The notes beneath the pieces were generated by a model. That model ran no database searches, had not been told where the DNA came from, and saw nothing but the letters and a program-made list of their open reading frames with translations. DNA of 45,835 nucleotides from Methanolacinia paynteri (GTDB lineage Archaea; Halobacteriota; Methanomicrobia; Methanomicrobiales; Methanomicrobiaceae). Where the stretch lies: assembly GCF_000784355.1 (NCBI RefSeq), contig NZ_AXDV01000005.1, forward strand, positions 1 to 45,835, read 5' to 3'. The position numbers were made by a program, and so were the translations under genes. Below, piece by piece: positions 12,096 through 31,335 of the stretch (the stretch's first letter is position 1; each line of letters starts with the position of its first letter).

Positions 12096-12132
12096 GTGTA
12101 GACGATTGTCAGACAAAACTTATAATATATCG
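12096..12132 (+). promoter_or_regulatory. Island promoter element, copy A, with TATA box
   Basis: Positions 12096-12132 align without gaps to the copy at 15292-15328. They start GTGTAGACGATTGTCAGAC and end in the TATA box TATAATATATCG (12121-12132). The central ACGATCGT palindrome has one change here (ACGATTGT). It precedes the first lipoprotein gene. Confidence 0.65.
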
Positions 12133-12177
12133 GGTTAATTTTCTTTTCGTGGGCTATATAAAAAACAATCTTAAAGT

Positions 12178-12206
12178 GCCGGGTGCAGGCGCCGGGACTC
12201 CCCCGG
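12178..12206 (+). promoter_or_regulatory. GC-rich leader hairpin upstream of lipoprotein 1
   Basis: The leader contains CCGGG (12192-12196), loop ACTCC and CCCGG (12202-12206) in otherwise AT-rich DNA, 42 bases before the start codon. The same sequence recurs unchanged before lipoprotein 2, at 13485-13499. It could shape the leader RNA; no riboswitch class was recognised. Confidence 0.4.
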
Positions 12207-12247
12207 AATAAACAATTTTGCTCGTAATATGGAAAGGAGTTCTTGAA

Positions 12248-13402
12248 ATGGATAATAAAAATAAAAAACATTTTGTGTTGATTTTGCTGGTCGCACTTCT
12301 TCTGTCCGCCACCATTGCAGCGGGATGTACCGGGAATTCAGGGAATGATCCGGGACCGTCCCATACTGCCGGAACGACAACGAACCAGCAACAGGAAGAG
12401 ACACCGGACAATCAGGTACCTGAAAGTGTCACTACAGCACCCGGTCAAAAATTTTCGGACCCTGTCAAACTCCCGGGTCCAACAACGAGAAGCAATGCAA
12501 TAAGGCCGAAATATGATTCCGAAACCGAAGAAAAAATTATCGATGAAGCAAAATCCGAGATCCTGCGGGTTTTTCCCGGAGCTGTTTCAGCATCGCTAAA
12601 TAATTATCACTGGGATTCGAATCGCGTCGGTACATTATTTTTACCTGTAATCGTCTTCGATGGTGTGATTGTAGATAAAGATCAGGCCGGCGACATAAGT
12701 GAGATCACCTATGATCCTGAAAACAAGCGGATTGTTTATTGGGGATATGACAATGACGCGCCTGTCCGGGATACAAGCGGAGGCGAAATTATACGGCATG
12801 AGGATATCGATATCGAAGAGGACATAATCCCGTTATTTAAAAGAATCATCGGGGAAGAAGAGTATGAAAAAAACAAAGACAATTACTTCATATATACAGC
12901 TGACAGCCCGAATGATTACCTGACTACAATTGCATATATCTCTGAATCCTATAAAGGGATTCAATCGTACATGGGCAGGGCCCAGATCTTTTTGAACAGG
13001 GCAAACGGGGAGATATATATGTATGGAGACGATTTTAACGATAAGGATTTCTATAACGAAGCAGTGACATTATCTACTGTTCCCGGAATATCTCTTGACG
13101 AGGCAAAATCAATTTTAGAAACGAAACTGGATGAAGCTTACCCGGACGACCCCCAGGAAGTGCAGTATAAAGAGGCTGAAAATACAAACTGCTTGAAATG
13201 GCTCGATGCGGAAGCTTATATGGACATCGAAAACGGCTATCTGTTAAGCCCAATACCGCTTGCATGGTGGATTTCGTATACTTCTAAAGGATCACGAGCT
13301 GAAACGGACAGATATTTGGGGGCGGCTGTCGATGCAAACACCGGTGAAATACTGTCCATGAGTGATCCCAGATTTGTTATTCATGGCAAAAATTACGGCT
13401 GA
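12248..13402 (+). CDS. PepSY-like lipoprotein, subfamily I, copy 1
   Basis: This 384-aa surface lipoprotein has TIAAGC with C27 as the lipid site, then a Thr/Gln-rich linker. The body opens with KYDSETEEKIIDEAKSEILR and then LNNYHWDSNRVGTLF. Later segments ISLDEAKSILETKLDEAYPDD and AAVDANTGEILSM look like PepSY units, whose hallmark is a closing D-x-x-T-G-E-[IV]. PepSY domains are extracytoplasmic and often inhibitory or chaperone-like. ATG 12248 follows AAAGGAG at ideal spacing. Its upstream region and first 80 codons are nearly identical to copy 2. No enzyme motif is visible. It belongs to a set of four with 13541, 16248 and 30166. Confidence 0.75.
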   Translation: MDNKNKKHFVLILLVALLLSATIAAGCTGNSGNDPGPSHTAGTTTNQQQEETPDNQVPESVTTAPGQKFSDPVKLPGPTTRSNAIRPKYDSETEEKIIDEAKSEILRVFPGAVSASLNNYHWDSNRVGTLFLPVIVFDGVIVDKDQAGDISEITYDPENKRIVYWGYDNDAPVRDTSGGEIIRHEDIDIEEDIIPLFKRIIGEEEYEKNKDNYFIYTADSPNDYLTTIAYISESYKGIQSYMGRAQIFLNRANGEIYMYGDDFNDKDFYNEAVTLSTVPGISLDEAKSILETKLDEAYPDDPQEVQYKEAENTNCLKWLDAEAYMDIENGYLLSPIPLAWWISYTSKGSRAETDRYLGAAVDANTGEILSMSDPRFVIHGKNYG

Positions 13403-13410
13403 TACTGAAG

Positions 13411-13425
13411 ACGTATAATATATCG
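13411..13425 (+). promoter_or_regulatory. Island promoter, truncated copy B
   Basis: ACGTATAATATATCG at 13411-13425 matches the TATA end of copies A and C, but the palindromic ACGATCGT part is missing because the lipoprotein 1 stop lies only 9 bases upstream. The sequence from here to the next gene is colinear with 12118-12247 at a constant offset of 1293 bases. Confidence 0.55.
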
Positions 13426-13540
13426 AACCAAATTTCTTTTCGTGGGCTATATGAAAAATCACCTTAAAGTGCCGGGTGCAGGCGCCGGGACTCCCCCGGA
13501 ATAAACAATTTTGCTCGTAATATGGAAAGGAGTTCTTGAA

Positions 13541-14725
13541 ATGGATAATAAAAAACATTTTGTGTTAATTATGGTGATCGCACTTCTTCTGTCCGCCACC
13601 ATTGCAGCGGGGTGTACCGGGAATTCAGGGAATGATCCGGGACAGTCCCCTACTGCCGGAGCGACAACGAACCAGCAACAGGAAGAAACACCGGACAATC
13701 AGGTGCCTGAAAGTGTCACTACAGCACCCGGTCAAAAATTTTCGGACCCTGTCAAACTGCCGGGATCAATAACAGAAAGCACTGCAATAAGGCCGAAATA
13801 TGATTCCGAAACCGAGGAAAAAATTATCGATGAAGCAAAATCCGAGATATTACGAGTTTTTCCCGGAGCTGATCCCTCGTCACTCAACAGATATGGCTGG
13901 GACACTAAACTGGCGGGGTCATTCTTCGTCCCTGTAATCACCTTTGTAAATGTGATCCCGGATACGAAAGAGCCTGAAAATATTCTCGGAGAAGTTGCCT
14001 ATGACCCGGACAAAGGGAGAATTGTTACCTGGTATTACACTTATGATTCACCTATAAACAATAAAAACGGGGATGAAATAATCTCTCATGAATCCGTCGA
14101 TATAGAAAGAGACATCGTCCCTGTCTTCAGGAAGATGATCGGCGATGAGGAATACGGGAAAAACAGGGATAATTATTCCATCTACCTGGTAGACTCTGTT
14201 AATTTTCCCCTGACGACATGTGCATATATACATGAATCTTATAATGGCGTCAGGTCGGACATGGGTTATACCCAGATCTATTTTAACAGGGCAAACGGAG
14301 AGATTACGACATATGGGGACGTTTTTAACAAGAAAGAATTCCTAAACGAATCTACGACATCATCGCCGGTCCCGGAAATATCTCTTGAGGAGGCAGAATC
14401 GATCCTCGAAGCAAAAATTAACGAACTATATTCGGACGATCCGCAGGAGATAGAGTACTGCGAATATCATAGCGGTGCTGCGGCAGTAGGGTTAACAAAC
14501 GGTTTGTTCTGGCTTGACCGGAGTATATACATGGATATAGAAGACGATCAATTATTGAGTCCGATATCCCTGGGATGGAGGATCACATTCAAAACGAAAG
14601 AATCACGAAGTATGGGGGGCCCTCTCAATGGTGCCCGATATACATATATCGATGCTCACACAGGAGAAATCGTGTACCTGCGTAATGATCGTATCGATAT
14701 AATCAGAAATGATAACCAATACTGA
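13541..14725 (+). CDS. PepSY-like lipoprotein, subfamily I, copy 2
   Basis: A 394-aa tandem duplicate of the preceding gene. The lipobox cysteine is C25. The first 80 or so residues are nearly the same as copy 1 (QEETPDNQVPESVTTAPGQK), but the rest has diverged, with an added stretch near the C-terminus (CEYHSGAAAVGLTNGLFWLD). The PepSY-like closing motif is DAHTGEIVYL. The contrast between a nearly identical 5' end and a divergent 3' part suggests an older duplication whose front has been homogenised by recombination. Start ATG 13541 follows the same AAAGGAG. Function unknown; probably an accessory or sensor protein on the outside of the membrane. Confidence 0.75.
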   Translation: MDNKKHFVLIMVIALLLSATIAAGCTGNSGNDPGQSPTAGATTNQQQEETPDNQVPESVTTAPGQKFSDPVKLPGSITESTAIRPKYDSETEEKIIDEAKSEILRVFPGADPSSLNRYGWDTKLAGSFFVPVITFVNVIPDTKEPENILGEVAYDPDKGRIVTWYYTYDSPINNKNGDEIISHESVDIERDIVPVFRKMIGDEEYGKNRDNYSIYLVDSVNFPLTTCAYIHESYNGVRSDMGYTQIYFNRANGEITTYGDVFNKKEFLNESTTSSPVPEISLEEAESILEAKINELYSDDPQEIEYCEYHSGAAAVGLTNGLFWLDRSIYMDIEDDQLLSPISLGWRITFKTKESRSMGGPLNGARYTYIDAHTGEIVYLRNDRIDIIRNDNQY

Positions 14726-14759
14726 AAGGAAAAAAAGTTCGTATGCGAATAAAAAAAAG

Positions 14760-14861
14760 GTGCTTGCTTCCATGTGGGGTTATATTCTCTTCCTGGTTGC
14801 ATACCCTATTGTCTTTTTCGGGATAGCATACGTGAAGTTCATGAGGATGGATCTCCGGTGA
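14760..14861 (+). pseudogene. 3' remnant of an ABC-2 permease gene
   Basis: These 34 codons (VLASMWGYILFLVAYPIV ... RMDLR, stop) are the last membrane helix and C-terminus of an ABC-2 permease with nothing in front of it. They match bases 20562-20663 at 99 of 102 positions, and the similarity runs on for a few bases past the stop (CTGCGATATGAA). A recent duplication or deletion junction must lie just before 14760. The fragment cannot be functional alone. Confidence 0.85.
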
Positions 14862-14960
14862 CTGCGATATGAAAATCAAAACCGAAGAGAAAACACGAGC
14901 CGTTCACAGAAAAGGAGAATCCACCTGGACTCCCCTTAATCTGTTGCTAATCCTGCAGAA

Positions 14961-15004
14961 AACCGCAACTGAAACAGTCGTTCCAGGCACTGTTTCATGA
15001 AAAC
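14961..15004 (+). repeat. Direct repeat with hairpin, copy 1
   Basis: AACCGCAACTGAAACAGTCG and the following bases form a perfect 9-bp stem, TGAAACAGT (14970-14978) and ACTGTTTCA (14989-14997), with a 10-base loop. The unit recurs about 520 bases downstream. Confidence 0.6.
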
Positions 15005-15291
15005 CCCTGAAAGGGACATGTGCAGCCTGCAAAATCATCCGGATTTACCTGGCCCAAAACTGAACAAGGCTAAAATATTTCTGGGCTTCAAAAGGTATAA
15101 TATTTCCGATCGATACCTAATCATATTTTTTTGAAGGTCTGCAATACGCACGAGGCAGATCTTCGGGTCGTCTTTTCCCTTTCGCCGTCACTTGATCTTT
15201 TTCAGGCATTTTTTTCATATGTTCTGCGTGTAGCAACAATGAAGGTAGATCCGGGTATTTTTCATTTCACTAAAAGGGATTTTTCTCAAAC

Positions 15292-15328
15292 GTGTAGACG
15301 ATCGTTCAACAAGACGTATAATATATCG
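15292..15328 (+). promoter_or_regulatory. Island promoter element, copy C, with TATA box
   Basis: This copy has the full element: TGTAGACGATCGTTCAA at 15293-15309, AAGACG at 15311-15316, then TATAATATATCG at 15317-15328. ACGATCGT (15298-15305) is a perfect palindrome. It lies about 450 bases before the secreted-protein start, so transcription from it would give a long leader of roughly 430 bases. Confidence 0.65.
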
Positions 15329-15481
15329 AACTAAATTTTCTTTCGTGGGCAGTGGGGGGTACGATATTCCTTCACTGGGGACAGAAAAAATCACTGCCGG
15401 ACACAGGTTCACTGTTGTTCTGGAGTAAACTGCCCTGCCTTAACAGGCCCCTCTGGAAGGGGTTAACACAACCCTGTAAGA

Positions 15482-15525
15482 AACCGCAAATGAAACAGTC
15501 GTTCCAGGCACTTTTTCATGAAAAA
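15482..15525 (+). repeat. Direct repeat with hairpin, copy 2
   Basis: Same unit as 14961-15004: AACCGCAAATGAAACAGTCG then TTCCAGGCACTTTTTCATGA. One stem base is changed (ACTTTTTCA at 15510-15518 opposite TGAAACAGT at 15491-15499). It lies inside the predicted long leader of the secreted-protein gene. Confidence 0.55.
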
Positions 15526-15774
15526 TCCAATCGCGATTTCAAAAGACCGGGTTCTCCAAAAATTGCCCGTGATAACTGCATCAGTCATTCGGATTGACCA
15601 GACAGGAACCCCTTCAAAAAAAGCGTGAACAAACGGGATGTTTCATCTCCAGACAGTCGGCAGCAAACTATTGGCTCAGCAAAAGAGGAAGCAAACATCC
15701 ACAAACTCACGCTTAACAGGGAAATCAGAGACGATTTTCCTCTCCAAAAAACTGAAACAAAGGTGAAATTAGAA

Positions 15775-16194
15775 ATGAAAACATTCAATTTCAGAAAACT
15801 CGGCATCATCTCCGTGATGATGCTTGTCGGTGCAATGGTCCTAGTTGGATCTGCGAGCGCTTCTACTGGCGATTGGAGTTACGCGACTGGCACTGGCTAT
15901 AAGGTAGGAGCTTACGGTGAGTACTCAAACTCTATTTATGGATTTATCTATGGAGGTTCAGCTGAAAGCACAGCAGGCTCTAAAGAACTAAAGGTAAATG
16001 CTAAAGTGTATAATACAGATGCTTCATCTAACCCGACATTGACAGATAGTGGATTCGGTACAATAATATCGACTACTGTGGCTTACTATAGCCATGATAA
16101 GACAGTTGATCTTCACGATTATAATCCATACACAGTGAATTATGGTAAGGTGGGTTCCGGCTATCATTCTGTAACTGATCATCCAGACCCATAA
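15775..16194 (+). CDS. Small secreted protein of unknown function (139 aa)
   Basis: The ATG at 15775 has AGGTGA at 15761-15766. The product starts with a classic signal peptide (MKTFNFRKLGIISVMMLVGA ... SASA), with cleavage probably after A29. The mature 110 residues are rich in Gly, Ser, Tyr and Thr and contain no cysteine, for example GDWSYATGTGYKVGAYGEY, IYGGSAESTAGSK and a histidine-rich tail (YYSHDKTVDLHDYNP, HSVTDHPDP). The Trp-Ser-Tyr-Gly pattern loosely recalls lactococcin-972-type bacteriocins, but that resemblance is weak. Set among ABC-2 transporters and surface lipoproteins, it could be an exported effector or a surface protein. An in-frame start at 15625 lacks a ribosome site. 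Confidence 0.65.
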   Translation: MKTFNFRKLGIISVMMLVGAMVLVGSASASTGDWSYATGTGYKVGAYGEYSNSIYGFIYGGSAESTAGSKELKVNAKVYNTDASSNPTLTDSGFGTIISTTVAYYSHDKTVDLHDYNPYTVNYGKVGSGYHSVTDHPDP

Positions 16195-16247
16195 TTGGAT
16201 TATCCGAATGGATAAACCAATTTTTTGTGATAAGCGGAGTATAAAAG

Positions 16248-17387
16248 ATGGATTCTAAAAAAAAGGTCATTGCGACAATTATTATAGGTATAACACTTGC
16301 AGCAATCATATTTTCAGGATGTACAGATAAAACAGCCGGTATAGAAGGAACAGACATCGTGACAAAACAGCCTGAAGAAACCGCCGTAAATCATGAAACT
16401 GAAAATACAACCATAACATCCGGTGAAAAATTATCCGAACCTGTTCAACTGCCGGGAACTTCAATAACAGAAAGAACACCGGTAACACCAAAGTATGATT
16501 CTGAAACAAAAGAACAACTCGTAAAAGAAGCCAAAAATGAAATCCTTCAGATTTTTCCCAATGCATATTCCTCGTCGCTCAATAATTATCACTGGGACTC
16601 GAGCCGTTCAGGATCATTCACCGTATCAGTAATCACCTTTGAAGGTGTGATTACAGATACAGACGAGCCTAGTAATATTTGTGAAATAGACTATGATCCT
16701 GAAAAAGGGCGTATTGTCTATTGGGAATATGATCATGAAGCTCCAATCCGGGATACAAGCGGAGACGAAATAATAAGTCACGAAGATGTCGACATAGAAG
16801 AGGATATAATTCCGATCTTTAAAAGAATGGTAGGGGAAGAAGAATACGAGAAAAACAATGGCAGTTACTATATATACACGGCGGACAGCAGTAACGATCC
16901 AATAACAACAATTGCAATCATACGTGAATCCTTCAAAGGGATTAGATCGTACATGGGCAAGGCACAGATCTACATTAACAGAGCAAACGGTGAGGGGTAT
17001 GTATATGGAGAAAATTTCAATGATGAAGAGTTCTTTGAAAAGTCTGTGACATTATCATCGATTCCTGAAATATCACTTGATGAGGCAAAATCAATTCTCG
17101 AAGCAAAACTGGACGAAGTATACTCCGATAATCCGCAGGAAGTTCAGTATGATCCGGACGAAGAGAATACAAACTGTCTGTTATGGCTTGATGCTAGTGC
17201 TTATATGAACATCGAAGACGGCTACCTGTTAAGCCCCATACCGCTTGCATGGGGGATCTCATATTCTACAAAAGAATCACGGGCTGAAAGTGATCATTAT
17301 GCGTTTGCAGCTATTGATGCAAACACCGGTGAAATACTCTCCATGCATAATAGCAAAATTGATATTCACGGTAAAAATTACGATTGA
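16248..17387 (+). CDS. PepSY-like lipoprotein, subfamily I, copy 3
   Basis: A 379-aa lipoprotein (lipobox IFSGC, C25) colinear with copies 1 and 2. It has KYDSETKEQLVKEAKNEILQ, SLNNYHWDSSRSGSF, ISLDEAKSILEAKLDEVYSD and the closing DANTGEILSM. It resembles copy 1 more than copy 2 in its second half (NTNCLLWLDASAYMNIEDGY versus NTNCLKWLDAEAYMDIENGY). The start follows CGGAG with about 9 bases between. It lies 53 bases after the secreted-protein gene, so the two may share a transcript. Confidence 0.75.
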   Translation: MDSKKKVIATIIIGITLAAIIFSGCTDKTAGIEGTDIVTKQPEETAVNHETENTTITSGEKLSEPVQLPGTSITERTPVTPKYDSETKEQLVKEAKNEILQIFPNAYSSSLNNYHWDSSRSGSFTVSVITFEGVITDTDEPSNICEIDYDPEKGRIVYWEYDHEAPIRDTSGDEIISHEDVDIEEDIIPIFKRMVGEEEYEKNNGSYYIYTADSSNDPITTIAIIRESFKGIRSYMGKAQIYINRANGEGYVYGENFNDEEFFEKSVTLSSIPEISLDEAKSILEAKLDEVYSDNPQEVQYDPDEENTNCLLWLDASAYMNIEDGYLLSPIPLAWGISYSTKESRAESDHYAFAAIDANTGEILSMHNSKIDIHGKNYD

Positions 17388-17486
17388 AATAAAAAACGCC
17401 AATATGGAAAAAAACCTTCACAAATAAAAGAGAGAGATTTCTATACTTCCAAGGATTCTATCTCTTTTTTGCAGGATTGAAATAAT

Positions 17487-17512
17487 GTGTAGAAGATCGT
17501 TCAATAAGACGT
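17487..17512 (+). promoter_or_regulatory. Island element, copy D
   Basis: GTGTAGAAGATCGTTCAA (17487-17504) followed by TAAGACGT. One change (A for C) breaks the left half of the palindrome. It is followed by TTTAAAGAATCAT, which is conserved in other copies. It is upstream of ABC module 1. Confidence 0.65.
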
Positions 17513-17622
17513 TTAAAGAATCATCTGTAATTTTTACTAGTAATCATATGAAAAAACATCCTTCAATGAAGGGATATTTCAGATAACCGGAATCCGGGCA
17601 AATTAATAAAATCAACCTTTGC

Positions 17623-17632
17623 CACATAAATC
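17623..17632 (+). promoter_or_regulatory. Shared CACATAAATC box before ABC ATPase 1
   Basis: The same ten bases occur at 23200, 24527 and 27172, each 60-95 bases before a start codon and usually followed by CTTATT-like sequence. Position and composition fit a TATA-type promoter box. Confidence 0.45.
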
Positions 17633-17715
17633 ACTTATTGAATAGTTCAGAAAATGTTAGCTCACCACACAAGAGAACCCTAAACGATCAAATTAAATCG
17701 TAAATGGGGGTAAAA

Positions 17716-18639
17716 ATGATATTTACAAAAAACCTCACCAAAGAATACAACGGAAAAAACGCGGTCGACAACCTCAACCTCGAAGTCGGAGACGGAGAAG
17801 TCTTCGGGTTCCTCGGCCCCAACGGGGCAGGAAAAAGCACGACCATCCTGATGCTCACCGGGATGATCGAACCTACATCCGGGACATGCACAATCGAAGG
17901 AGTAAACGTCGCACTAAATCCGCTCAAGGGAAAAGAGATCCTCGGGTACCTCCCGGAGGATGTCGGGTTCTACAGGAATCTCACCGGGTACGAGAACCTC
18001 GACTACCTCGGAAAATTCTACCCCATAGAAAAAAGCGAGAGGGAAGATCGGATCGAGAGACTCTTAAAAAGCGTCAGGCTCAACAGCGTCACACAGAAAG
18101 TCGGCGAGTACTCGAGGGGAATGAACCAGAGACTCGGGCTCGCCCTTGCACTTTTAAACGACCCGAAGGTCGTGATCCTTGACGAACCGACCGCAAACCT
18201 GGACCCGGAAGGAGTACTCAGGTACAGGGAGATCATAAAAGAGCTTGAAAAAGAAGGCAAAACAGTCCTCATATGCTCCCATATCCTCTCCGAAGTCCGG
18301 GCGGTCTGCACGACACTCGGCATAATATCCCAGGGAAGACTCGTTGCAAAAGGGTCCGTCGAAGAGGTCGAAGACGAACTCATCAGGCAGAGCGGAACGA
18401 GGCAGAAGATCGTTGTCAAATCCATAAACCCGGAACTTTACGAAGAGATCGAATCGATCAAAAACCCCGACATCCTTGAAATAGAAAGGACAAAGGACGG
18501 GATCGAGATCTCCGTCGAAAGTGACATCAGGCCACTTCTTGCAGAAAAACTGAAAGATCACTGCTCCGGTATAACCGAGATGTACCTCGACCGCCCCGGA
18601 CTTGAAGATTTATTCCTCAAGGTTTACAGGAGGGAATAG
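17716..18639 (+). CDS. ABC transporter ATP-binding protein, module 1
   Basis: This 307-aa ATPase energises an ABC-2 type transporter. Walker A is GPNGAGKSTT (about residues 34-43), the signature YSRGMNQR and Walker B VVILDEPTANLDP are intact, and the H-loop is in ICSHILSEV. The C-terminal 80 residues (IRQSGTRQKIV ... FLKVYRRE) are the extension typical of the NatA/CcmA-like group. I chose ATG 17716, which puts GGGGG at ideal distance and matches the second copy; an ATG at 17704 includes the ribosome site itself. By eye it differs from the module 2 ATPase at only 12 of 307 residues. Three bases separate it from the first permease. Confidence 0.92.
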   Translation: MIFTKNLTKEYNGKNAVDNLNLEVGDGEVFGFLGPNGAGKSTTILMLTGMIEPTSGTCTIEGVNVALNPLKGKEILGYLPEDVGFYRNLTGYENLDYLGKFYPIEKSEREDRIERLLKSVRLNSVTQKVGEYSRGMNQRLGLALALLNDPKVVILDEPTANLDPEGVLRYREIIKELEKEGKTVLICSHILSEVRAVCTTLGIISQGRLVAKGSVEEVEDELIRQSGTRQKIVVKSINPELYEEIESIKNPDILEIERTKDGIEISVESDIRPLLAEKLKDHCSGITEMYLDRPGLEDLFLKVYRRE

Positions 18640-18642
18640 AGA

Positions 18643-19647
18643 TTGGATCTTGCAAGACTTGCAATAATTTCGCAAAAAGAATTCTCCGATCATATCAGGA
18701 GCAGAAGGCTCATATTCATCCTGATAATATTCTGCCTTATCCTGGGCATTAAAGCGGCAAACGGTGTAGCAGATTACAACGAATCGCTTGAAGCATATAA
18801 GTCAGGAACAGGCTCTCTGGTGATCTTCCTTCCTTCAGCAGTGGAGGTCTTTTCTGAGATCGTAAATGCGATTGGCTCAGAAGGATTTGGTTTAATAGTG
18901 GGCCTGGCACTTGGCTTCGATCTTCTATCAGGGGAAAAGGAAGGCAGAACATTAAAGACCATACTATCCCGGCCAATTTATCGTGACGAACTCATAAACG
19001 GGAAGGCCATCGGCGGAATTGCAGCTCTTATTTTAATCTCGGCCACAGGATTTTTTATAGTCCTCGCGGTTATGCTCGTGCTTGGAATTGTGCCGGATTT
19101 TGATGAATTGTTTGGGATAGGGATTCTCTGGATTCTGACGCTCCTGTTTATGATAACGGCATTTTCACTTGCACTGATGACCTCGGTCATCACAAAAACC
19201 AGCAGTAATTCCCTGATCCTTTCGCTTGCCATCATCTTCCTGATATTATTCGTCCTGCCTTTGGGAGTGAACAATATTGCAACAGAATTATTAATCGGCC
19301 AACCACCGTTGCCTTCATCTGATTCATTTAGCTCTGGCATGTATGAATATCAGGAAAAACAGAAAGAATACTACGATGAAAAAAATGCCATTATCGACCT
19401 GTCTACATCAATATCCATAAAAGAGGTATACGAAGATATTACACTCCCTATTGTTGCACCGTCCTCTTATCAGATAAGTATGAATTTGAGAAATTCAAAC
19501 GATCCCTTCAGCTCTGCCACGTCTGAAAAACCAGGCGTGTGGTCACTTGTCAGCGATCAATTTGGAAAACTCATCATATTCATAATGTGGCCTGTTATCT
19601 TCTTCGGAATTGCCTATGTCAGGTTCATGAGGTTGGATCTGAGATAA
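18643..19647 (+). CDS. ABC-2 type permease 1, module 1
   Basis: This 334-aa membrane protein has about six helices: one near the N-terminus, the rest from residue 85 on. It carries the motif GFDLLSGEKEGRTLKTILSR followed by YRDELINGKAIGG, typical of NosY-like ABC-2 permeases, and ends in FFGIAYVRFMRLDLR. A large outside loop (about residues 220-300) separates the last two helices. The start is TTG 18643, supported by GGAGGG just upstream and by the same TTG start in the module 2 homologue. It pairs with permease 2 to form the channel. Substrate unknown. Confidence 0.88.
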   Translation: MDLARLAIISQKEFSDHIRSRRLIFILIIFCLILGIKAANGVADYNESLEAYKSGTGSLVIFLPSAVEVFSEIVNAIGSEGFGLIVGLALGFDLLSGEKEGRTLKTILSRPIYRDELINGKAIGGIAALILISATGFFIVLAVMLVLGIVPDFDELFGIGILWILTLLFMITAFSLALMTSVITKTSSNSLILSLAIIFLILFVLPLGVNNIATELLIGQPPLPSSDSFSSGMYEYQEKQKEYYDEKNAIIDLSTSISIKEVYEDITLPIVAPSSYQISMNLRNSNDPFSSATSEKPGVWSLVSDQFGKLIIFIMWPVIFFGIAYVRFMRLDLR

Positions 19648-19667
19648 CGCAGGGGGGAATTATCAAA

Positions 19668-23266: not shown

Positions 23267-24379
23267 ATGAAAAAGCATTATCAGAAGATTCCGCTTTGTA
23301 TACTGGCTGCATGTATGATTTTCGTGATTCTGACAGCAGGATGTACATATAACGGCCCAAACCCACTGGAGAGCACCCCGGCCACACCGACGAATTCCGT
23401 AACAGCAGAAACTACGCAGTCAGTTCAGTCAGGAAGCACACAACCCGCAGTCTCGTGGAAGGACTTCTATCCCGATCATACCGAACAGGAAAAATCTCAA
23501 TTAATCGAAGAAGCGAAAGGCGAGGTCATGAGTACTTTCCCGGACCTGGACAAATCAACGCTGAACGGGAACTGGGTTGAGCACTCAAGAATTACCGACG
23601 ACGGTCTGGAAGAGATCGGCCGACCGTATATTAAATTCGAAGGTATCAAATCCACCTCTGATGACGAAAAATATGCAGTTTTCGTCGACCCGGAATCAAT
23701 GAAGATAATATATTATACTCCGTATAGCGGCAGCCACACCGAACCTGTAATCTCTTTCAATGAGGCAAAGGAAAAAGCGATCGATTTCATAAGAGAGACA
23801 CAGGGTGACGACTCAATAGCTGATGATCCCGACACGTACATATATACTGTAAACTGCTACGAAAGAGATGAATTCGGCCTGCCTGTTGCTCTTGTTAATA
23901 TCTATAAAAAAAGTAATGGAATAACATATACAGACAATTACGTCATGGCCGAATATGATATGAATAAAGACAATATTGAAAGATACCACGACAATTTAGC
24001 AAATTCAGAACTTCTTTCAGGACTTACAACACTTTCGGCACAACCCGAGATCAGCTTTGACGAAGCAGTGAATCTGGTAGAGGATAAAATCGCTGAAAAA
24101 TATAACCTTGATGAGATAGGTGTAGAATACTCCGAAGTTACTCCATATGACAGCTATCTGTTATGGTGGGATGACGACAATATCGTTTACGCTGACGATC
24201 CCGACCCGGTTCCACTGGTATGGTATGCGGGAATTAGTGATGAGAACAGTCGCGAAGAGTCCCAGGAAACCGGTTTGCCTGCCAGATGTGGTGCATTTAT
24301 AGTCGATGCACATACCGGGGAGATCTACAGGCTCGTATACGGAGATATAAAAATCAAAACTTACGGTTATATGGGGTAA
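23267..24379 (+). CDS. PepSY-like lipoprotein, subfamily II, copy 1
   Basis: This 370-aa lipoprotein (lipobox ILTAGC, C26) has a Thr/Pro/Ser-rich linker. It is marked by VSWKDFYPDHTEQEKSQLIE, STLNGNWVEH, a first DPESMKIIYYTPY segment, then ISFDEAVNLVEDKIAEKYNL and the closing DAHTGEIYRLVYG. The layout matches subfamily I (signal, linker, EAKxEI helix, two PepSY-like units), but the sequence is clearly separate. Both subfamilies share the EEAKxEIxRxFP ... LN motif. It is expected on the outer membrane face. Start ATG 23267 follows AGGTGA. Confidence 0.75.
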   Translation: MKKHYQKIPLCILAACMIFVILTAGCTYNGPNPLESTPATPTNSVTAETTQSVQSGSTQPAVSWKDFYPDHTEQEKSQLIEEAKGEVMSTFPDLDKSTLNGNWVEHSRITDDGLEEIGRPYIKFEGIKSTSDDEKYAVFVDPESMKIIYYTPYSGSHTEPVISFNEAKEKAIDFIRETQGDDSIADDPDTYIYTVNCYERDEFGLPVALVNIYKKSNGITYTDNYVMAEYDMNKDNIERYHDNLANSELLSGLTTLSAQPEISFDEAVNLVEDKIAEKYNLDEIGVEYSEVTPYDSYLLWWDDDNIVYADDPDPVPLVWYAGISDENSREESQETGLPARCGAFIVDAHTGEIYRLVYGDIKIKTYGYMG

Positions 24380-24405: not shown

Positions 24406-24431
24406 GTGCGGGAGATAGATCAACAGGACGT
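24406..24431 (+). promoter_or_regulatory. Island element, degenerate copy G
   Basis: The 26 bases from GTGCGGGAGATAGATCAAC to GGACGT align end to end with copies D-F but have lost the ACGATCGT core. The conserved flank AATCATC...GTAATTTT follows. It is followed at 24487 by a fragment of the dispersed repeat. Confidence 0.4.
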
Positions 24432-24593: not shown

Positions 24594-25697
24594 ATGAAAA
24601 AGCATTATCAGAAGATTCCGTTTTGTATACTGGCTGCATGTATGTTTTTCGTTATTCTGACATCAGGATGTACATATAACGGTCCAAACCCACTGGAGAA
24701 CACCCCGGCCACACCGACGAATTCCGTAACAGCAGAAACTACGCAGTCAGTTCAGTCAGGAAGCACACAACCGACAGTATCATGGAAAGACTTCTATCCC
24801 GATCATACCGAACAGGAAAAATCTCAATTGATCGAAAAGGCAAAAGACGAGATTCTGAGAGTCTTCCCTACGGTGGATAGATCAACGCTCAACGGAGAGT
24901 GGGTTGAGCATGCAAGAACCAACGGCGCAGGTACAGAAATGATAGGTAGTCCGTATATCGATTTTGAAAATTTGGAATTTTCATCAGGAGAAAACAGGGA
25001 ATTTGTAATAGAAGTAGATCCCGAATCAATGAAGGTAATATATTACTCTCCGTATAAAGGCACTTATTCTTCGGCTAAAATTACCTATGGTGAGGGAAAA
25101 GAAAAGGCAGTCGAGTTCATAAAAAAAGCACAGGGAGGAGATTCGATTGCTGATGATCCTGATGCCTACACTGTTATGAAGAATGAATATGCATCAGGTG
25201 GGAGACCTATGGCATCTGTTTCATATTATAAAAAATTTAATGGAGTTCCATATGAATCTAACAGAGTTTCGGCAGAATATGATCTGAGCCGTGACAAGGT
25301 AGAGAGATATTTCGATTATACAGCAAATCCAGGACTCCTATCAGGATTAACTACGTTATCACCCGAACCTGATATTACTCTTGAAGAAGCAAAACAGATC
25401 TTTGAAAATAAAATTTCTGGAAAATATGATCTTGATGAGTTAGAATTAGAATACTCTGAAACTAGTTCGTTTGACACCTATCTCTTATGGTGGGATGACG
25501 ACAATATTGTTTATGCCGACGATCCCAACCCGATACCTCTGGTATGGTTTATTACATGTAGCGATAAGGATAGTCGCGAAGAATATGAAGAAACAGGTGT
25601 TTCCCCAGAATCTGGGGCATTTATAATCGATGCACATACCGGAGAGATCTACTGGCTTAAATATGGAGAAATATCTATCAAAAAATATTTATCCTAA
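24594..25697 (+). CDS. PepSY-like lipoprotein, subfamily II, copy 2
   Basis: A 367-aa tandem duplicate of the previous gene at an offset of 1327 bases, with the same lipobox (C26). The first 75 codons are almost the same (NSVTAETTQSVQSGSTQP). Divergence rises afterwards, but LLWWDDDNIVYADDPNPIPL and DAHTGEIYWLKYGE keep the pattern. The upstream 86 bases are duplicated too, so each copy has its own CACATAAATC box and AGGTGA ribosome site. Confidence 0.75.
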   Translation: MKKHYQKIPFCILAACMFFVILTSGCTYNGPNPLENTPATPTNSVTAETTQSVQSGSTQPTVSWKDFYPDHTEQEKSQLIEKAKDEILRVFPTVDRSTLNGEWVEHARTNGAGTEMIGSPYIDFENLEFSSGENREFVIEVDPESMKVIYYSPYKGTYSSAKITYGEGKEKAVEFIKKAQGGDSIADDPDAYTVMKNEYASGGRPMASVSYYKKFNGVPYESNRVSAEYDLSRDKVERYFDYTANPGLLSGLTTLSPEPDITLEEAKQIFENKISGKYDLDELELEYSETSSFDTYLLWWDDDNIVYADDPNPIPLVWFITCSDKDSREEYEETGVSPESGAFIIDAHTGEIYWLKYGEISIKKYLS

Positions 25698-25742: not shown

Positions 25743-25768
25743 ATGTAGACGATCGTTCAATAAGACGT
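25743..25768 (+). promoter_or_regulatory. Island element, copy E
   Basis: ATGTAGACGATCGTTCAA (25743-25760) then TAAGACGT, with a perfect ACGATCGT palindrome at 25749-25756. It lies 72 bases before the next lipoprotein start. Confidence 0.65.
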
Positions 25769-25839: not shown

Positions 25840-26979
25840 ATGAAAAAAATACTAAATGAATTTTCAATTATTTTGGTCGCTGTGGTTATAGTGTTCACAA
25901 TTTTCGCTTCGGGTTGCACAGTTAATAATTCAAACCAGCATGAAGTTACTCCTTCTCCAGGCATTACTTCTTCAGCAACTGAAATTCCGCAAACGGCACA
26001 ATCAGGGATCACTAAACCTTCGGCCAACTGGAAGGATTTCTATCCAGAATATAACGAGTACGACGGCCAGACCAGACAGGAATTGATCGAAGAGGCAAAA
26101 GACGAGATTATGAGACTGTTCCCAAACGTTGACAGGTCAACTCTGAACGGTCAATGGCAGGAACACGTTTACACATACACGAGTATTGCATACGGTTACC
26201 CGGTCATCGTTTTTGAAAATGCAGACTTCACATCTGATAATTTCATGGCTTTACAGGAGGAGATGTCAAACGGAGATTCATCAAGGATTCAGAGAAATCT
26301 GGTGAGAATTGTTTATGATCCCAAATCAGAAAAAGTTCTTGATTTCGGCTCTTATGGCTATAGTACGCCTCCGGCAAGCGCAGAGAGACGAGTAACTTCT
26401 GAAGAGGCAAAAGAGAAATGTTTAAACTTAATCAAAAAAGTAAAAGGAGAAGATTTTGTTAACAACGAAATGAACGATTATTCAATTATCTTTACAGATC
26501 TAGAAGCAGAAGATAATCAAGGAGAAGTAATCGTTGAGTTAGAAGGTTATCCATATGAAAATGTCCCGTATCTCAACGGTGGAATATTCGTTGATTATAA
26601 TTTAGTCCTTGATGAAGTTCTTGGTTATTCAGATTGCACCTATGATCCGGAACTTCTGGCAGCGCTGACTACACTATCCCCAGACCCGGAAATTAAAACG
26701 CTTGAAGAGGCAAAGGGAATATTCGAAGCGAAAGTCGCGGAGAGGTACCCGGGAGAGGTAGATATTGATTACAGAACAGATGAAGGTTTTACAACAAACG
26801 CACTCGTATGGGATAATATTCCAAAGAATATTTTTTCAGACAATCCCGAGCCTTTCAAACTGGTATGGTATCTTGTATTTAATTCAGGTAATGCCAGAAG
26901 GGAGGCGGTAATCGATGCTCACACGGGAGAGATCACATACCTCAGGTACAAGGATATCGATATCGATACCTATGACTGA
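25840..26979 (+). CDS. PepSY-like lipoprotein, subfamily II, copy 3
   Basis: This 379-aa lipoprotein (lipobox IFASGC, C26) shares NWKDFYPEYNEYDGQTRQE, RSTLNGQWQEH, LEEAKGIFEAKVAERYPGE and the closing DAHTGEITYLRYKD with the two preceding genes, but is much more divergent, including in its signal peptide and linker. It has its own upstream element (copy E). Start ATG 25840 follows GGTGG. It ends 283 bases before ABC module 2. Confidence 0.75.
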   Translation: MKKILNEFSIILVAVVIVFTIFASGCTVNNSNQHEVTPSPGITSSATEIPQTAQSGITKPSANWKDFYPEYNEYDGQTRQELIEEAKDEIMRLFPNVDRSTLNGQWQEHVYTYTSIAYGYPVIVFENADFTSDNFMALQEEMSNGDSSRIQRNLVRIVYDPKSEKVLDFGSYGYSTPPASAERRVTSEEAKEKCLNLIKKVKGEDFVNNEMNDYSIIFTDLEAEDNQGEVIVELEGYPYENVPYLNGGIFVDYNLVLDEVLGYSDCTYDPELLAALTTLSPDPEIKTLEEAKGIFEAKVAERYPGEVDIDYRTDEGFTTNALVWDNIPKNIFSDNPEPFKLVWYLVFNSGNARREAVIDAHTGEITYLRYKDIDIDTYD

Positions 26980-27035: not shown

Positions 27036-27061
27036 ATGTAGACGATCGTTCAATAAGACGT
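27036..27061 (+). promoter_or_regulatory. Island element, copy F
   Basis: ATGTAGACGATCGTTCAA (27036-27053) then TAAGACGT, identical to copy E over all 26 bases, followed by TTAAATAATTAT. It lies upstream of ABC module 2 in a region alignable with 17487-17715. Confidence 0.65.
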
Positions 27062-27262: not shown

Positions 27263-28186
27263 ATGATAAAAACCGAAAACCTCACCAAGGAATATAACGG
27301 AAAAAACGCGGTCGACAACCTCAACCTCGAAGTTGGAGACGGAGAAGTCTTCGGGTTCCTCGGCCCGAACGGAGCTGGGAAGAGTACGACCATCCTGATG
27401 CTCACGGGAATGATCGAGCCCACATCCGGCACATGCACGATAGAAGGAGTAAACGTCGCAATAAACCCGCTCAAGGGAAAAGAGATCCTCGGCTACCTCC
27501 CGGAGGATGTCGGGTTTTACAGGAATCTCACCGGTTATGAAAACCTCGACTACCTCGGGAAGTTCTACCCGATAGAAAAAAGGGAGAGGGAAGATCGGAT
27601 CGAGAGACTCTTAAAAAGCGTCAGGCTCAATGGGGTCACACAGAAAGTAGGCGAATATTCGAGGGGAATGAACCAGAGGCTCGGGCTCGCACTTGCACTT
27701 TTGAACGACCCGAAGGTCGTGATCCTCGACGAACCAACCGCAAACCTGGACCCGGAAGGAGTACTCAGGTACAGGGAGATCATAAAAGAGCTTGAAAAAG
27801 AAGGAAAGACAGTTCTCATCTGCTCCCATATTCTCTCCGAAGTCCGGGCGGTCTGCACGACACTCGGCATAATATCCCAGGGAAAACTCGTTGCGAAAGG
27901 ATCTGTCGAAAAGGTCGAAGACGAACTCATCAGGCAGAGCGGAACGAGGCAGAAGATCGTCATCAAATCCATAAACCCGGAACTTTACGAAGAGATCGAA
28001 TCGATCAAAAATCCCGACATCCTTGGGGTGGAAAGGACGAAGGACGGAATCGAGATCTCAGTCCAAACAGACATCCGGCCCCTTCTCGCAGAAAAACTGA
28101 AAGACCACTGCTCCGGTATAACCGAGATGTATCTCGACCGCCCCGGACTTGAAGACTTATTCCTGAAGGTGTACAGGAGGGAGTAG
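27263..28186 (+). CDS. ABC transporter ATP-binding protein, module 2
   Basis: A 307-aa ATPase with intact Walker A (GPNGAGKSTT), signature (YSRGMNQR), Walker B (VVILDEPTANLDP) and H-loop. It differs from the module 1 ATPase at 12 residues by eye, clustered at the first five positions and in the C-terminal extension (GVERTKDGIEISVQT). Several third-codon positions differ, so the copies are not brand new. Purifying selection, gene conversion or both have kept the proteins alike. Start ATG 27263 follows GGGGG; three bases separate it from the permease. Confidence 0.92.
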   Translation: MIKTENLTKEYNGKNAVDNLNLEVGDGEVFGFLGPNGAGKSTTILMLTGMIEPTSGTCTIEGVNVAINPLKGKEILGYLPEDVGFYRNLTGYENLDYLGKFYPIEKREREDRIERLLKSVRLNGVTQKVGEYSRGMNQRLGLALALLNDPKVVILDEPTANLDPEGVLRYREIIKELEKEGKTVLICSHILSEVRAVCTTLGIISQGKLVAKGSVEKVEDELIRQSGTRQKIVIKSINPELYEEIESIKNPDILGVERTKDGIEISVQTDIRPLLAEKLKDHCSGITEMYLDRPGLEDLFLKVYRRE

Positions 28187-28189: not shown

Positions 28190-29164
28190 TTGGATCTTAC
28201 AAGACTTGCGATTATCTCTCAAAAGGAGTTATCCGACCATGTAACAAGCAGGCGATTCCTCCTGATACTAACAATAACATGCCTTGTACTTGGGGTTGCG
28301 GCTGCAAACGGTGTCACGGATTACAACAATGCCCTTGAGAGGTATAAAGTCGGAGAAGAGGGTGATCCTTTCATGCCGTCAATCCTCTACGCGTTTGGAA
28401 AAATTACAGATTCGGTTGGTTTGGAAGGACTGGGGGCGATCATAGGAATTGCAATAGGTTTTGATCTCATTGCAGGAGAGCGGGAGGGAAGATCCTTAAA
28501 GACCATACTCTCACAGCCGCTATACAGGGACGAACTTATAAACGGGAAGGCCATCGGCGGAATAACCACACTCGCAATTATAACACTTGCAGGATTTTTA
28601 ACCATTCTCGCCATATTCCTGGTTATAAGCATTGTTCCTTCTTTTGAAGAGGTCTTTTTAATCGGGGTGATTTGGTTTATAACTCTGCTATATATGATTT
28701 CATACTTTTCAATGGCGCTGATGTCTTCTGTTCTCGCAAAGACCAGTAGCGGAGCCATGATAATCTCACTGATCATCCTGTTCATAATGACGTATATAAT
28801 TCCAGTCGGCGGAGGAGAACTCGGGACCTGTCTTCTCGGACCGGAACCTGAAGACATAGGGTATGACCATGATTCGCAACTACAGGCAAACTATGAAAGA
28901 GCGGTTTTGGATATATATGATTTTTTCAATCTCTTTTCGGCACAAAGGGTCTATAGCAGTATAACCTCCCCAATAACGGATCCATCTTATTATGCAATCT
29001 ATCAGCTTGGGTTTGATAATTTAGACGAAACGGGGAATATTGAAAAACCGTCTTTATTGGGAATTATAGGTGACAAATGGATAAATATCATAGTTTTCAT
29101 TATGTGGCCTGTTCTCTTCTTCGGGATAGCCTATGTGAAATTCATGCGTACGGACCTGAGGTGA
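28190..29164 (+). CDS. ABC-2 type permease 1, module 2
   Basis: This 324-aa homologue of the module 1 first permease has the same TTG start after GGAGGG. GFDLIAGEREGRSLKTILSQ, YRDELINGKAIGG and FFGIAYVKFMRTDLR are conserved, while the long loop before the last helix (about residues 210-290) is largely unrelated. Overall similarity to its module 1 partner is roughly half of the positions, far below that of the ATPases. The loop difference may reflect different substrates or partner lipoproteins. Confidence 0.88.
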   Translation: MDLTRLAIISQKELSDHVTSRRFLLILTITCLVLGVAAANGVTDYNNALERYKVGEEGDPFMPSILYAFGKITDSVGLEGLGAIIGIAIGFDLIAGEREGRSLKTILSQPLYRDELINGKAIGGITTLAIITLAGFLTILAIFLVISIVPSFEEVFLIGVIWFITLLYMISYFSMALMSSVLAKTSSGAMIISLIILFIMTYIIPVGGGELGTCLLGPEPEDIGYDHDSQLQANYERAVLDIYDFFNLFSAQRVYSSITSPITDPSYYAIYQLGFDNLDETGNIEKPSLLGIIGDKWINIIVFIMWPVLFFGIAYVKFMRTDLR

Positions 29165-29173
29165 CGAAGAATT

Positions 29174-30160
29174 ATGGATTTTAAACGAATCACCTTGATA
29201 GGTTACAAGGAATTCCAGGATCATATCACAAGCAGACGGTTCCTCGCCCTCTTGTTTTTGATGCTGACGATAACCGGGATCTTTGTATTCAAGGAGATAG
29301 GCAGTTATATTGAGGATTTGGAGGAATACAGCACACTCTATAGTTACTCCTTTTTTGGCCTTCCAAAACCTGTGAACATCTTCGAAGGTATAAAGTCCGG
29401 AATTGCAGGCAGCTCCATATTCGGGTCGATAATTGCTATTACACTGGGATTTGATCTTATAACGAAAGAGAGAGAGACCGGATCGATCAAGGCGATACTC
29501 TCGGTTCCTGTCTACAGGGACGAAGTCATAAACGGCAAGGCACTTGGAGGTATATTGGCAATAGCACTTGCGGTAACGATCGTCTTCGTGCTGACTCTTG
29601 GAATTATGTTGATATATAGCATTGTTCCGGATCTTAATGAACTGGGCTTCTTATTCGTTTTCTGGTTAATAACGATCCTCTATCTGTCCGGGATCTTTAT
29701 AATGTCATTAATGGTCTCGTCTTTTTCGAAGACAAGCGGAATATCATTTATATACTCATTAATGCTCCTTCTCATCCTGACAAGCGTCATATATTCGACA
29801 GGAGATTTTGCAGTTGACACGATAATGGGGCAGGAGCCTTCGATAAATACGAACAATATGGGTTTATCGGATCCCAAACATTACCAGGAGGAATCCAATG
29901 CCTATTATCAAAGAAGAATAGAGCTTACAAATCTTGTATTTTACATCTCTCTCGATACAAACTACCGTAAAACTTCAATAGCCCTGACCAAGCCTAAATT
30001 GTATCTAAGAACGCAATCCGAATACAATTCTGAGAGTCCAGATCCAACACTTTCCGACATGCTGGGAAAAATCTGGGGCTACGTCCTCTTCCTTATTGCA
30101 TATCCCATAGCCTTCTTCGGGATAGCCTATGTGAAATTCATGAGGATGGATTTAAGGTGA
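29174..30160 (+). CDS. ABC-2 type permease 2, module 2
   Basis: This 328-aa homologue of the module 1 second permease has GFDLITKERETGSIKAILS, YRDEVINGKALGG, six or so helices and the C-terminal FFGIAYVKFMRMDLR. The start is ATG 29174, ten bases after GAGGTGA. Its stop overlaps the ribosome site of the following lipoprotein gene, which ties that lipoprotein to the transporter. Confidence 0.88.
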   Translation: MDFKRITLIGYKEFQDHITSRRFLALLFLMLTITGIFVFKEIGSYIEDLEEYSTLYSYSFFGLPKPVNIFEGIKSGIAGSSIFGSIIAITLGFDLITKERETGSIKAILSVPVYRDEVINGKALGGILAIALAVTIVFVLTLGIMLIYSIVPDLNELGFLFVFWLITILYLSGIFIMSLMVSSFSKTSGISFIYSLMLLLILTSVIYSTGDFAVDTIMGQEPSINTNNMGLSDPKHYQEESNAYYQRRIELTNLVFYISLDTNYRKTSIALTKPKLYLRTQSEYNSESPDPTLSDMLGKIWGYVLFLIAYPIAFFGIAYVKFMRMDLR

Positions 30161-30165
30161 TTACT

Positions 30166-31335
30166 ATGAAAAATAAAAACAGATCAATTCACTACTTGCT
30201 GGCAATCGCAGTCATAATGCTGATTGTATCTTCGCTGCTGGTATCCGGGTGTACCGTAAACAACAGTCCGGCAGTAGCTGCCGGGCCGGATACGACCGTC
30301 CCCGAACAGACCGATCAGCAGCCCGAACAAGTCACAGACAATTATATCGGAGCCGGTGAAAGACTGGCCGAACCTGTAAAAGTCCCCGGAACCTGGATCG
30401 GGACAGATAAATCAAAAGCGATACCGGATTACGATGACGAAACCAAAGAGAAATATCTTGCCGAAGCAAAAGCTGAAATTCTCCGGGTCTTCCCTGAAAC
30501 GGATGTTTCCACACTGAACAGGTATTACTGGGATGCGGAACTTGCAGGCTCGTTTTTCATTCCGGCTCTCGTTTTCAGTGACGTAATCGTGGACAAAACA
30601 GAACCTGAAAATGCCTGCGATCAAATCTATTACAGCCCGGATAAAAAACGAATTACCTGGTGGTATTATGACACAAATTCCCCGGCCAGGGGCACCAGCG
30701 GAAGCGAGATAATACGGCAGGAGGACGTCGATATGGAAAGGGATGTTCTGCCGGTCTTCAAAAATATTATCGGGAACGAGGAGTTTGAAAGAAACAGGGA
30801 CAATTACTCCACATATCTTTTGGACGACGGAAATATCCACCAGACAACCGCCGCGTACATCTGTGAAGGCGGCAGCGGTGTCAAATGCTATATGGGCAAT
30901 ACGAGAGTCTCCTTCAGCAGGACGACCGGAAGAGTTGTGGCATACAGGGAGAATTTCAACGAGGAAGAGTTCTACAGCCAGGCGGTAAAATTGCCCACCG
31001 TCCCGAAAATATCTCTTGAGGAAGCCAAATCGATCCTCGAAGCAAAACTCGACGAACTATACCCTGACGACCCGCAGAATATTCAATATCCCGAAGGGGG
31101 CTCAGCCGATCTTTCAGGCGGCCTGTTCTGGCTCGATTCCTGTGTATACATGGATATAGAAGACGATTACCTGTTAAGCCCCGTACCATTGGCATGGGGA
31201 ATCATATACATAACCAAAGAATCACAAGGCTGGGGCGGATCAGGAGAAATCTGGGCGGCAGTCGATGCAAACACCGGCGAAATAGTGAGTATGTATAACG
31301 ACCGGATAAGGATCTCGGGAAAAACTTACGATTGA
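30166..31335 (+). CDS. PepSY-like lipoprotein, subfamily I, copy 4, linked to ABC module 2
   Basis: A 389-aa lipoprotein (lipobox LLVSGC, C29) of the same subfamily as 12248, 13541 and 16248. It has DYDDETKEKYLAEAKAEILR, STLNRYYWDAELAGSFF, ISLEEAKSILEAKLDELYPDD and the closing DANTGEIVSM. I chose ATG 30166, five bases after the permease stop and with GGTGATT as ribosome site; a GTG at 30157 would overlap the permease. This is the one lipoprotein plainly in an operon with a transporter, which is the main argument that the family serves these ABC modules. Confidence 0.78.
   Translation: MKNKNRSIHYLLAIAVIMLIVSSLLVSGCTVNNSPAVAAGPDTTVPEQTDQQPEQVTDNYIGAGERLAEPVKVPGTWIGTDKSKAIPDYDDETKEKYLAEAKAEILRVFPETDVSTLNRYYWDAELAGSFFIPALVFSDVIVDKTEPENACDQIYYSPDKKRITWWYYDTNSPARGTSGSEIIRQEDVDMERDVLPVFKNIIGNEEFERNRDNYSTYLLDDGNIHQTTAAYICEGGSGVKCYMGNTRVSFSRTTGRVVAYRENFNEEEFYSQAVKLPTVPKISLEEAKSILEAKLDELYPDDPQNIQYPEGGSADLSGGLFWLDSCVYMDIEDDYLLSPVPLAWGIIYITKESQGWGGSGEIWAAVDANTGEIVSMYNDRIRISGKTYD

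Follow-up and report, generated by a model that had tools for sequence, protein, structure and literature searches.

Polymorphic toxin-immunity loci combine a constant N-terminal part with an exchangeable payload that moves together with the next gene, and they hold spare partner genes without a toxin; the NisFEG transporter consists of an ATPase and two permeases. NisI binds nisin, and NisI and NisFEG represent a membrane lipoprotein and an ATP-binding cassette (ABC) transporter tied to a secreted ribosomal product, according to a passage of PMC4828448. Few antagonism systems of archaea have been worked out. The portions of that literature covered here describe lanthipeptides (PMC10105419, in whose excerpt the terms searched bring up no mention of methanogens), RHS-type toxins in Methanococcus maripaludis (PMC11452385), peptidoglycan hydrolases and contractile injection; they stop short of the 2019 mBio survey and yielded no system of a PepSY lipoprotein and an ABC-2 transporter with a secreted partner. 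Among published systems, the closest relative that we saw is a variable ABC cassette from the dark-matter islands of archaea (arCOG00194), which a passage of Makarova et al. 2014 (PMC4158269) describes as an ABC ATPase with a permease and a strongly divergent protein, putatively a binding protein; resistance transport was proposed for it. Here we analyse a window of 45,835 nt, the whole stretch of DNA studied, on contig NZ_AXDV01000005.1 of the methanogen Methanolacinia paynteri, in which positions 12096-31335 hold seven lipoproteins, two ATPase-permease-permease modules, a permease remnant and a small secreted protein (listing of open reading frames, ORFs, and alignment; Table 1). The region appears to be built from an exchangeable cassette of a Sec-secreted small protein, one or more three-unit PepSY lipoproteins, an ABC-2 exporter (one ATPase, two permeases) and shared promoter elements. 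Its architecture and evolution are well supported, and we suggest, with a probability of about 0.45 judged from sequence, that the small protein acts as a secreted effector and that its cognate PepSY lipoprotein and a LanFEG-like exporter protect the producer.

One gene order recurs in the neighbourhoods that we fetched: small secreted protein, lipoprotein(s), ATPase, permease, permease. Exceptions include a small gene and lipoprotein without ABC genes on contig C1 of M. paynteri (contigs C1, C10, C30, C43 and C45 are all of this genome, G000), a lone lipoprotein at loci L070 and L076, and lipoproteins with ABC genes but without a small gene at L066 of the sister species (G001, which also holds L067). 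The initial annotation had expected the lipoproteins to sit beside ABC-2 modules in related genomes as well, and a like module does stand at the lipoprotein loci of G000, G001, G003, G009, G017 and G021. Among 232 genomes of the order, the lipoprotein profile matched 54 at E<=1e-8 and seven strongly (E<1e-50; best E 1e-119 to 1e-54), namely the same six and G123. The small-protein profile matched eight at E<=1e-6, and the seven below E 1e-30 are the very same genomes; the eighth, G104, gave 5e-8. Its matches make 22 rows, 17 of them above 100 bits, and all 17 adjoin a lipoprotein. Since this profile came from copies adjoining lipoproteins, the informative part of the result is the absence elsewhere. 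Early matches that covered the signal peptide and linker alone (model positions about 1-100) were dropped, and later searches used a mature-domain profile or stricter E-values. Neither protein was matched in a same-genus draft that is 84% complete (G002), and in a phylum sample of 392 genomes the lipoprotein profile matched 34 at E<=1e-10, the strong ones being G000, G001, G003 and G009, all of one family.

Counts of the two genes in G000, G001, G003, G009 and G017 (the drafts G021 and G123 were left out) are one-sided. There are 42 intact lipoprotein-family members (14, 10, 5, 10 and 3, respectively; one broken member of G009 and a fragment of G001 are not counted, two members without the lipobox Cys are) and 15 small genes (5, 2, 3, 4 and 1). 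Every one of the 15 lies directly upstream of a same-strand lipoprotein-family gene, and 27 of the 42 lipoproteins have no preceding small gene. The 14 members in M. paynteri comprise the seven of the window, two on C30, three on C43 and one each on C1 and C10.

The small protein has most likely its start at ATG 15775 and not at GTG 15625, the start in the ORF list, as judged from the sequence (row 1 of the small-protein alignment, the window copy, begins one codon late, at 15778). Over 16 small proteins, identity is 0.56 in the leader and 0.20 in the mature part, and within genomes (20 pairs) 0.60 and 0.19, with the leaders of the window and C30 (L060) copies cut two residues short in this comparison. 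Distances among small proteins correlate with those among the adjacent lipoproteins (Mantel correlation 0.70, p 5e-5, 15 pairs, with eight leader residues still on the small protein of L071). In the 13 complete modules, with the leader residues of L071 removed, the partial correlation is 0.57 given permease a (p 5e-5), 0.49 given permease b (p 5e-4) and 0.77 given the ATPase, while that between small protein and permease given the lipoprotein is -0.20 (a) and -0.05 (b). The mature domain thus co-diverges specifically with the adjacent lipoprotein when the permeases are controlled for, and not vice versa. Because the modules depend on one another and many small-protein distances approach saturation, the p-values are optimistic and we put weight on the contrast instead. 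On these partial correlations we discarded the idea that the small protein is paired with the permeases. The initial annotation had treated the small protein as incidental; co-occurrence and co-divergence make it a core component, and probably the central one, of the cassette. Module types recur across genera or genomes (window-L071, L060-L069c, L061-L068-L072a, L062-L069a; L072b-L075 lie within one genome), and the ATPases, at distances of 0.01-0.28 to the nearest, are much more uniform than the other parts.

A direct view of how such pairs change is offered by L060 of M. paynteri and L067 of the sister species. Their flanks align at 88% and 84-92%, BLASTN finds no match over 6662-8534 at E 1e-10, and alignment resumes at the ATPase start (8535, 72.6%), a short shared element ahead of the ATPase persisting. 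The left break, at 6661, is the final base of the presumed signal-peptide codons. In 30-nt windows, the three within the leader score 0.83-0.97, the next is a gap in one sequence and the rest score 0.33-0.57. Mature domain and lipoprotein(s) have therefore been replaced together, and whether or not the small protein is toxic, this clearly shows a protein pair evolving as a module. A second difference concerns a whole cassette. An 8.8-kb A-type unit (two A-type lipoproteins, permease remnant, small protein, A-type lipoprotein, ATPase and two permeases) is absent from G001, in which 6 bases separate the two flanks by BLASTN: window 9627-12050 corresponds to L066 4-2427 (88.8%) and window 20881-22440 to L066 2434-3995 (82.4%). 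Whether one species gained it or the other lost it cannot be told. The two junction alignments show no obvious boundary features of a transposon, which were sought at these junctions only. Further on, window 26029-30183 matches G001 at 92.7%, but the permease is followed by an A-type lipoprotein in the window and by a B-type one in G001. The initial annotation had proposed enlargement by repeated duplication; the near copies A1 and A2 bear this out in part, but cassette gain or loss and the joint replacement of payload and lipoprotein have contributed too.

The seven window lipoproteins form one family with two subfamilies, as first annotated: identity is 47-62% among A1-A4, 33-64% among B1-B3 and 24-29% between the two (BLASTP E 8e-15 to 1e-28). 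Of the layout ascribed to them, the lipobox, the L-N motif and the closing D-A-[NH]-T-G-E-I are present in all seven; EAKxEI is exact in only five (B1 has EAKGEV and B2 KAKDEI), and the closing motif ends only the last of three predicted helix-plus-strands units. An AlphaFold model of B2, the input being the seven window proteins, shows these three units (predicted local distance difference test, pLDDT, 72.6; predicted template modelling score, pTM, 0.70). Its top match by Foldseek in the PDB is the YpeB C-terminal domain (5boi, 3.5e-8), followed by vibriolysin propeptides (2e-4), and VIA-align gives Z 14.2 over 220 residues with YpeB, the runner-up row scoring 10.3. The seven window proteins stay below the Pfam PepSY cut-off (PF03413, 14.4-18.3 bits against 24), and a PepSY search of the whole M. 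paynteri genome gave no match at E<=0.001. This blank is resolved by intermediate relatives, since six of six distant relatives drawn in by the family profile pass Pfam PepSY (27.5-53.7 bits); all six also pass DUF4901 (YcdB/YcdC repeat). On the predicted model, the fold is that of PepSY/YpeB, with tandem helix plus beta-sheet units, as the initial annotation had supposed. Fold and tandem arrangement are like those of YpeB and the PepSY/FTP propeptides (PDB 5boi, 3nqz, 4k90), from which the window proteins differ by their lipobox anchor and ABC-2 neighbours; no adjoining peptidase gene was noticed in the window. Two family members, L061:6964-8049 and L068:5944-7035, have Tyr in place of the lipobox Cys and may therefore lack a lipid anchor.

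More distant PepSY proteins follow a related theme. In Methanofollis and Methanoculleus (g11 and g12), a PepSY protein directly precedes an ABC-2 permease in 12 of 14 fetched loci, mostly by 5-21 nt, and upstream of it there is often a further small secreted protein (L079, L085, L087, L088, L100 and L104, by a crude signal-peptide filter). The expectation that these proteins would not occur without ABC modules held only partly: no ABC neighbour is found at L081, L089, L092, L093, L096 and L097, and in eight loci (L081, L083, L105, L106, L108, L122, L123 and L124, two of them repeated as L102 and L121) a secreted protein carrying H-G and G-x-C motifs stands immediately before the PepSY protein, which has no adjoining permease. 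Their genomes include Methanofollis, a Methanophagales and a Methanosarcinaceae. The motifs are, we presume, clan CD-like; one of six such proteins scanned matches Peptidase_C25 (1.4e-7), and they found no match among PDB sequences. A protease with its inhibitor in trans is possible. The general theme is thus a secreted protein followed by its PepSY partner, and the position directly after a secreted protein is that expected of a cognate partner. L089, L092, L093, L096, L097 and L117-L120 show neither pairing; at L119 a weak permease match (19 bits) and then an ATPase come after two PepSY proteins.

Most of the units are linked by upstream elements, in agreement with the initial annotation. 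The element TGTAGANGATCGTTCANNAAGACGT, by eye an imperfect dyad centred on CGATCG followed by a TATA-like stretch, is present in the window in four copies without mismatch, where 0.00 would be expected at up to three mismatches, and in the whole genome in 11 copies at that threshold against none for a reversed control. Nine of the 11 lie near lipoprotein-family members. The other two, C43:18839-18863 and C45:16778-16802, are three-mismatch matches with no family lipoprotein in the surroundings fetched; at seven mismatches, one chance-like match inside a gene (9781) appears as well. G001 has the element at equivalent kinds of places, and at up to seven mismatches it was found only in G000 and G001 among loci L060-L078, L094, L095 and the window. 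G003 has its own 5' half, common to four upstream regions, with the same AAGACGTTTAAATA core; the upstream regions of G017 share no 14-mer and those of G009 short ones only. The conserved region from element to small gene is 350-480 nt long (window and L069), and in G003 four such regions are 92% identical (column mean), the fourth being that of a small-type gene that has shrunk to its leader ahead of an intact lipoprotein. Nothing exceeded the gathering score in an Rfam scan of window 11900-31600. Some copies are accompanied by winged-helix proteins with, by eye, a hydrophobic N-terminus: in L061 and L068 these stand after the element and ahead of the small gene, in L063 the small gene comes after one, and further copies have them in the vicinity. 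All six of those scanned exceed the cut-offs of HTH_24 and HTH_HVO_0163_N. Binding of these proteins to the element is conjecture.

On the mechanism that we favour, the small protein would exit through its signal peptide and its mature domain would act outside the cell, where it would most likely antagonise a narrow range of related archaea or neighbours. The co-made lipoprotein would bind the mature domain on the producer's surface and the ABC-2 pump would clear it from the membrane. Lipoproteins without a small gene could then be stockpiled immunity to rivals' variants, and the winged-helix proteins might sense the small protein or envelope damage and drive the promoters. The co-occurrence, the specific co-divergence, the joint replacement and the one-sided lipoprotein excess fit an effector with protective lipoprotein and pump, as in NisI-NisFEG. 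The 8.8-kb cassette missing from G001 and the leader-only remnant of G003 speak for this reading as well. The gene set of LanI-LanFEG (lipoprotein, ATPase, two ABC-2 permeases) is found in the window; by score its ABC module is not a LanFEG member, the module 1 ATPase reaching 198.6 bits on TIGR03740 (LanF-type ATPase) against a cut-off of 309.75. Unlike NisI/NisFEG, the system is archaeal, with a Sec-type product of about 110 residues, a PepSY/YpeB-fold lipoprotein and an ATPase at 199 bits where the cut-off is 310. It shares with polymorphic toxin-immunity loci a constant leader, a swappable C-terminal payload and a linked partner gene, seen at one locus in two species, as well as spare partner genes, but the constant part is a signal peptide only, the partner is a surface lipoprotein with a pump, and no recognisable toxin domain scores over cut-off in Pfam or NCBIfam. 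It resembles the arCOG00194 cassettes as described in PMC4158269, in a passage that names no PepSY protein or secreted partner for them. A broader proposition, that methanogens of this family practise antagonism through Sec-secreted proteins whose mature domain is swapped jointly with a PepSY-fold lipoprotein that confers immunity with an ABC-2 pump, as a bacteriocin-like class of archaeal systems, is slightly more tentative still. If the effector reading is right, methanogens would gain a testable, typed system of secreted effector and immunity, PepSY domains a role as cognate surface partners, and cassette genes would become markers of strain-level competition.

Several observations weigh against an effector with self-protection. 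No killing domain is recognised: the window copy and four other small proteins have no Pfam match over cut-off, NCBIfam likewise gives none, both small-protein profiles find nothing below E 0.2 among PDB sequences, and structure prediction from the window copy and two distant relatives failed (pLDDT 38.5). The criterion for lactococcin 972 (TIGR01653) does not hold either, with one match among 16 small proteins, at E 0.086. The pump may be protective, yet ATPase and permeases score under the lantibiotic-immunity cut-offs. The co-occurrence is subject to profile ascertainment, as six of the seven genomes supplied rows and G123 alone is independent, and the five weak small-protein rows (34-62 bits) are a leader-only remnant, three chiefly leader matches and G104. 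The co-divergence carries the optimistic p-values noted above and would also fit receptor-ligand or chaperone-client pairs, and the clear swap was seen at one locus in two species.

Other explanations draw on the same observations. The small protein might be a variable coat or adhesion protein and the PepSY lipoprotein its chaperone or anchor, the swaps serving to evade viruses or change partners. A conserved upstream region and leader ahead of a variable payload would suit this, the long and nearly identical upstream regions of G003 fit surface-antigen variation too, and the PepSY fold is that of protease propeptides; alone, however, it leaves unexplained both the ABC-2 pump and the 27 family members without a small gene, and we consider it unlikely. 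Many lipoprotein-ABC units are without a small gene, which would suit a general resistance exporter in which lipoprotein and pump guard against outside antibiotics or lipids, with the small protein a passenger, and the best NCBIfam match of the module 1 ATPase is drrA, under cut-off. A passenger would hardly adjoin a lipoprotein in all 17 strong matches, track it specifically or have its mature part within the replaced stretch, and we rank this possibility below the preceding one. One might also speculate that the cell uses the small protein as a signal of its own making, with the lipoprotein as receptor or co-receptor, the ABC-2 module as a transducing or clearing device and the winged-helix proteins carrying out the response. 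Such proteins do lie beside cassettes (L061, L068, L063 and others), the element is shared across the set in G000 and G001, and small protein and lipoprotein co-diverge as ligand and receptor might. But visual inspection of the ORF translations in window 10000-33500, where no profile search was made, showed no such regulator, a variable domain of about 110 residues is large for a signal, and nothing in the signalling model specifically predicts more lipoproteins than small genes; we think it the least probable of the three. An effector with cognate lipoprotein and pump thus remains our preferred reading.

Table 1. Features of the window and winged-helix genes at related loci (unprefixed positions are those of the window).
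Feature	Position	Strand	Remark
Lipoprotein A1, PepSY-fold	12248..13402	+	
Lipoprotein A2, PepSY-fold	13541..14725	+	5' part near copy of A1, 94% DNA identity over 300 nt
Lipoprotein A3, PepSY-fold	16248..17387	+	taken as small-protein partner
Lipoprotein B1, PepSY-fold	23267..24379	+	
Lipoprotein B2, PepSY-fold	24594..25697	+	the one modelled
Lipoprotein B3, PepSY-fold	25840..26979	+	
Lipoprotein A4, PepSY-fold	30166..31335	+	B-type lipoprotein at this place in G001
Small secreted protein	15775..16194	+	conserved signal peptide of ~29 aa (end by eye); variable mature part of ~110 aa from 15862
ABC ATPase, module 1	17704..18639	+	drrA 247 bits (cut-off 312); galliderm_ABC 199 bits (cut-off 310)
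ABC-2 permease a, module 1	18643..19647	+	TTG start; PF12679 138.1 bits
ABC-2 permease b, module 1	19668..20663	+	PF12679 133 bits
ABC ATPase, module 2	27263..28186	+	90% DNA identity with module 1 ATPase over 300 nt
ABC-2 permease a, module 2	28190..29164	+	TTG start; 51% identity with 18643 permease
ABC-2 permease b, module 2	29174..30160	+	compared with module 1
ABC-2 permease 3' remnant	14760..14861	+	14760-14873 equals 20562-20675 at 111/114 bases
Element copy, degenerate, upstream of A1	12097..12121	+	6 mismatches; repeat comparison
Shared promoter-like element upstream of small gene	15293..15317	+	
Shared element upstream of module 1 ATPase	17488..17512	+	
Element copy, degenerate, upstream of B2	24407..24431	+	7 mismatches; repeat 75% over 51 nt
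Shared element upstream of B3	25744..25768	+	
Shared element upstream of module 2 ATPase	27037..27061	+	
Long conserved region, element to small gene	15318..15774	+	no Rfam match
8.8-kb A-type cassette absent from G001	12051..20880	.	clean site
Tandem winged-helix proteins with N-terminal hydrophobic segment	L061:13530-14195, L063:4886-5695, L060:4213-5019, L070:5228-5989, L071:16056-16838, L098:2738-3604		

Both transporter modules and the permease remnant of the initial annotation stand. The two module 1 permeases pass the ABC-2 family PF12679 (cut-off 27.2), those of module 2 having been compared with module 1 only, and A4 starts 5 nt past the stop of the preceding permease. Ten of 13 permease matches in the M. 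paynteri genome exceed 350 bits and all ten lie in cassette loci; the other three, at 219-300 bits, lie elsewhere. A 55-nt repeat (14949-15003 and 15470-15524) places a piece of the small-gene upstream region beside the permease remnant as well, which suggests, from sequence, an eroded second cassette. Two further repeats (125 nt at 90%, 45 nt at 98%), at 22420-22652 and 31357-31543, border the region's second half and lie outside the lipoproteins.

Near and distant families of small proteins match in profile comparison (92% probability, E 6e-7), and because much of this match is leader, homology of their mature parts is not claimed. At L070, in G003, a 255-aa protein bears the small-protein leader. 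Finally, a three-gene cluster encoding secreted 156-aa, about 270-aa and about 484-aa proteins lies near cassettes in four genomes (L060:2700-5534, L067:11244-14025, L070:2199-5018 and L072:16809-19502); the L060 copies scanned are winged-helix and NEW3-domain proteins.

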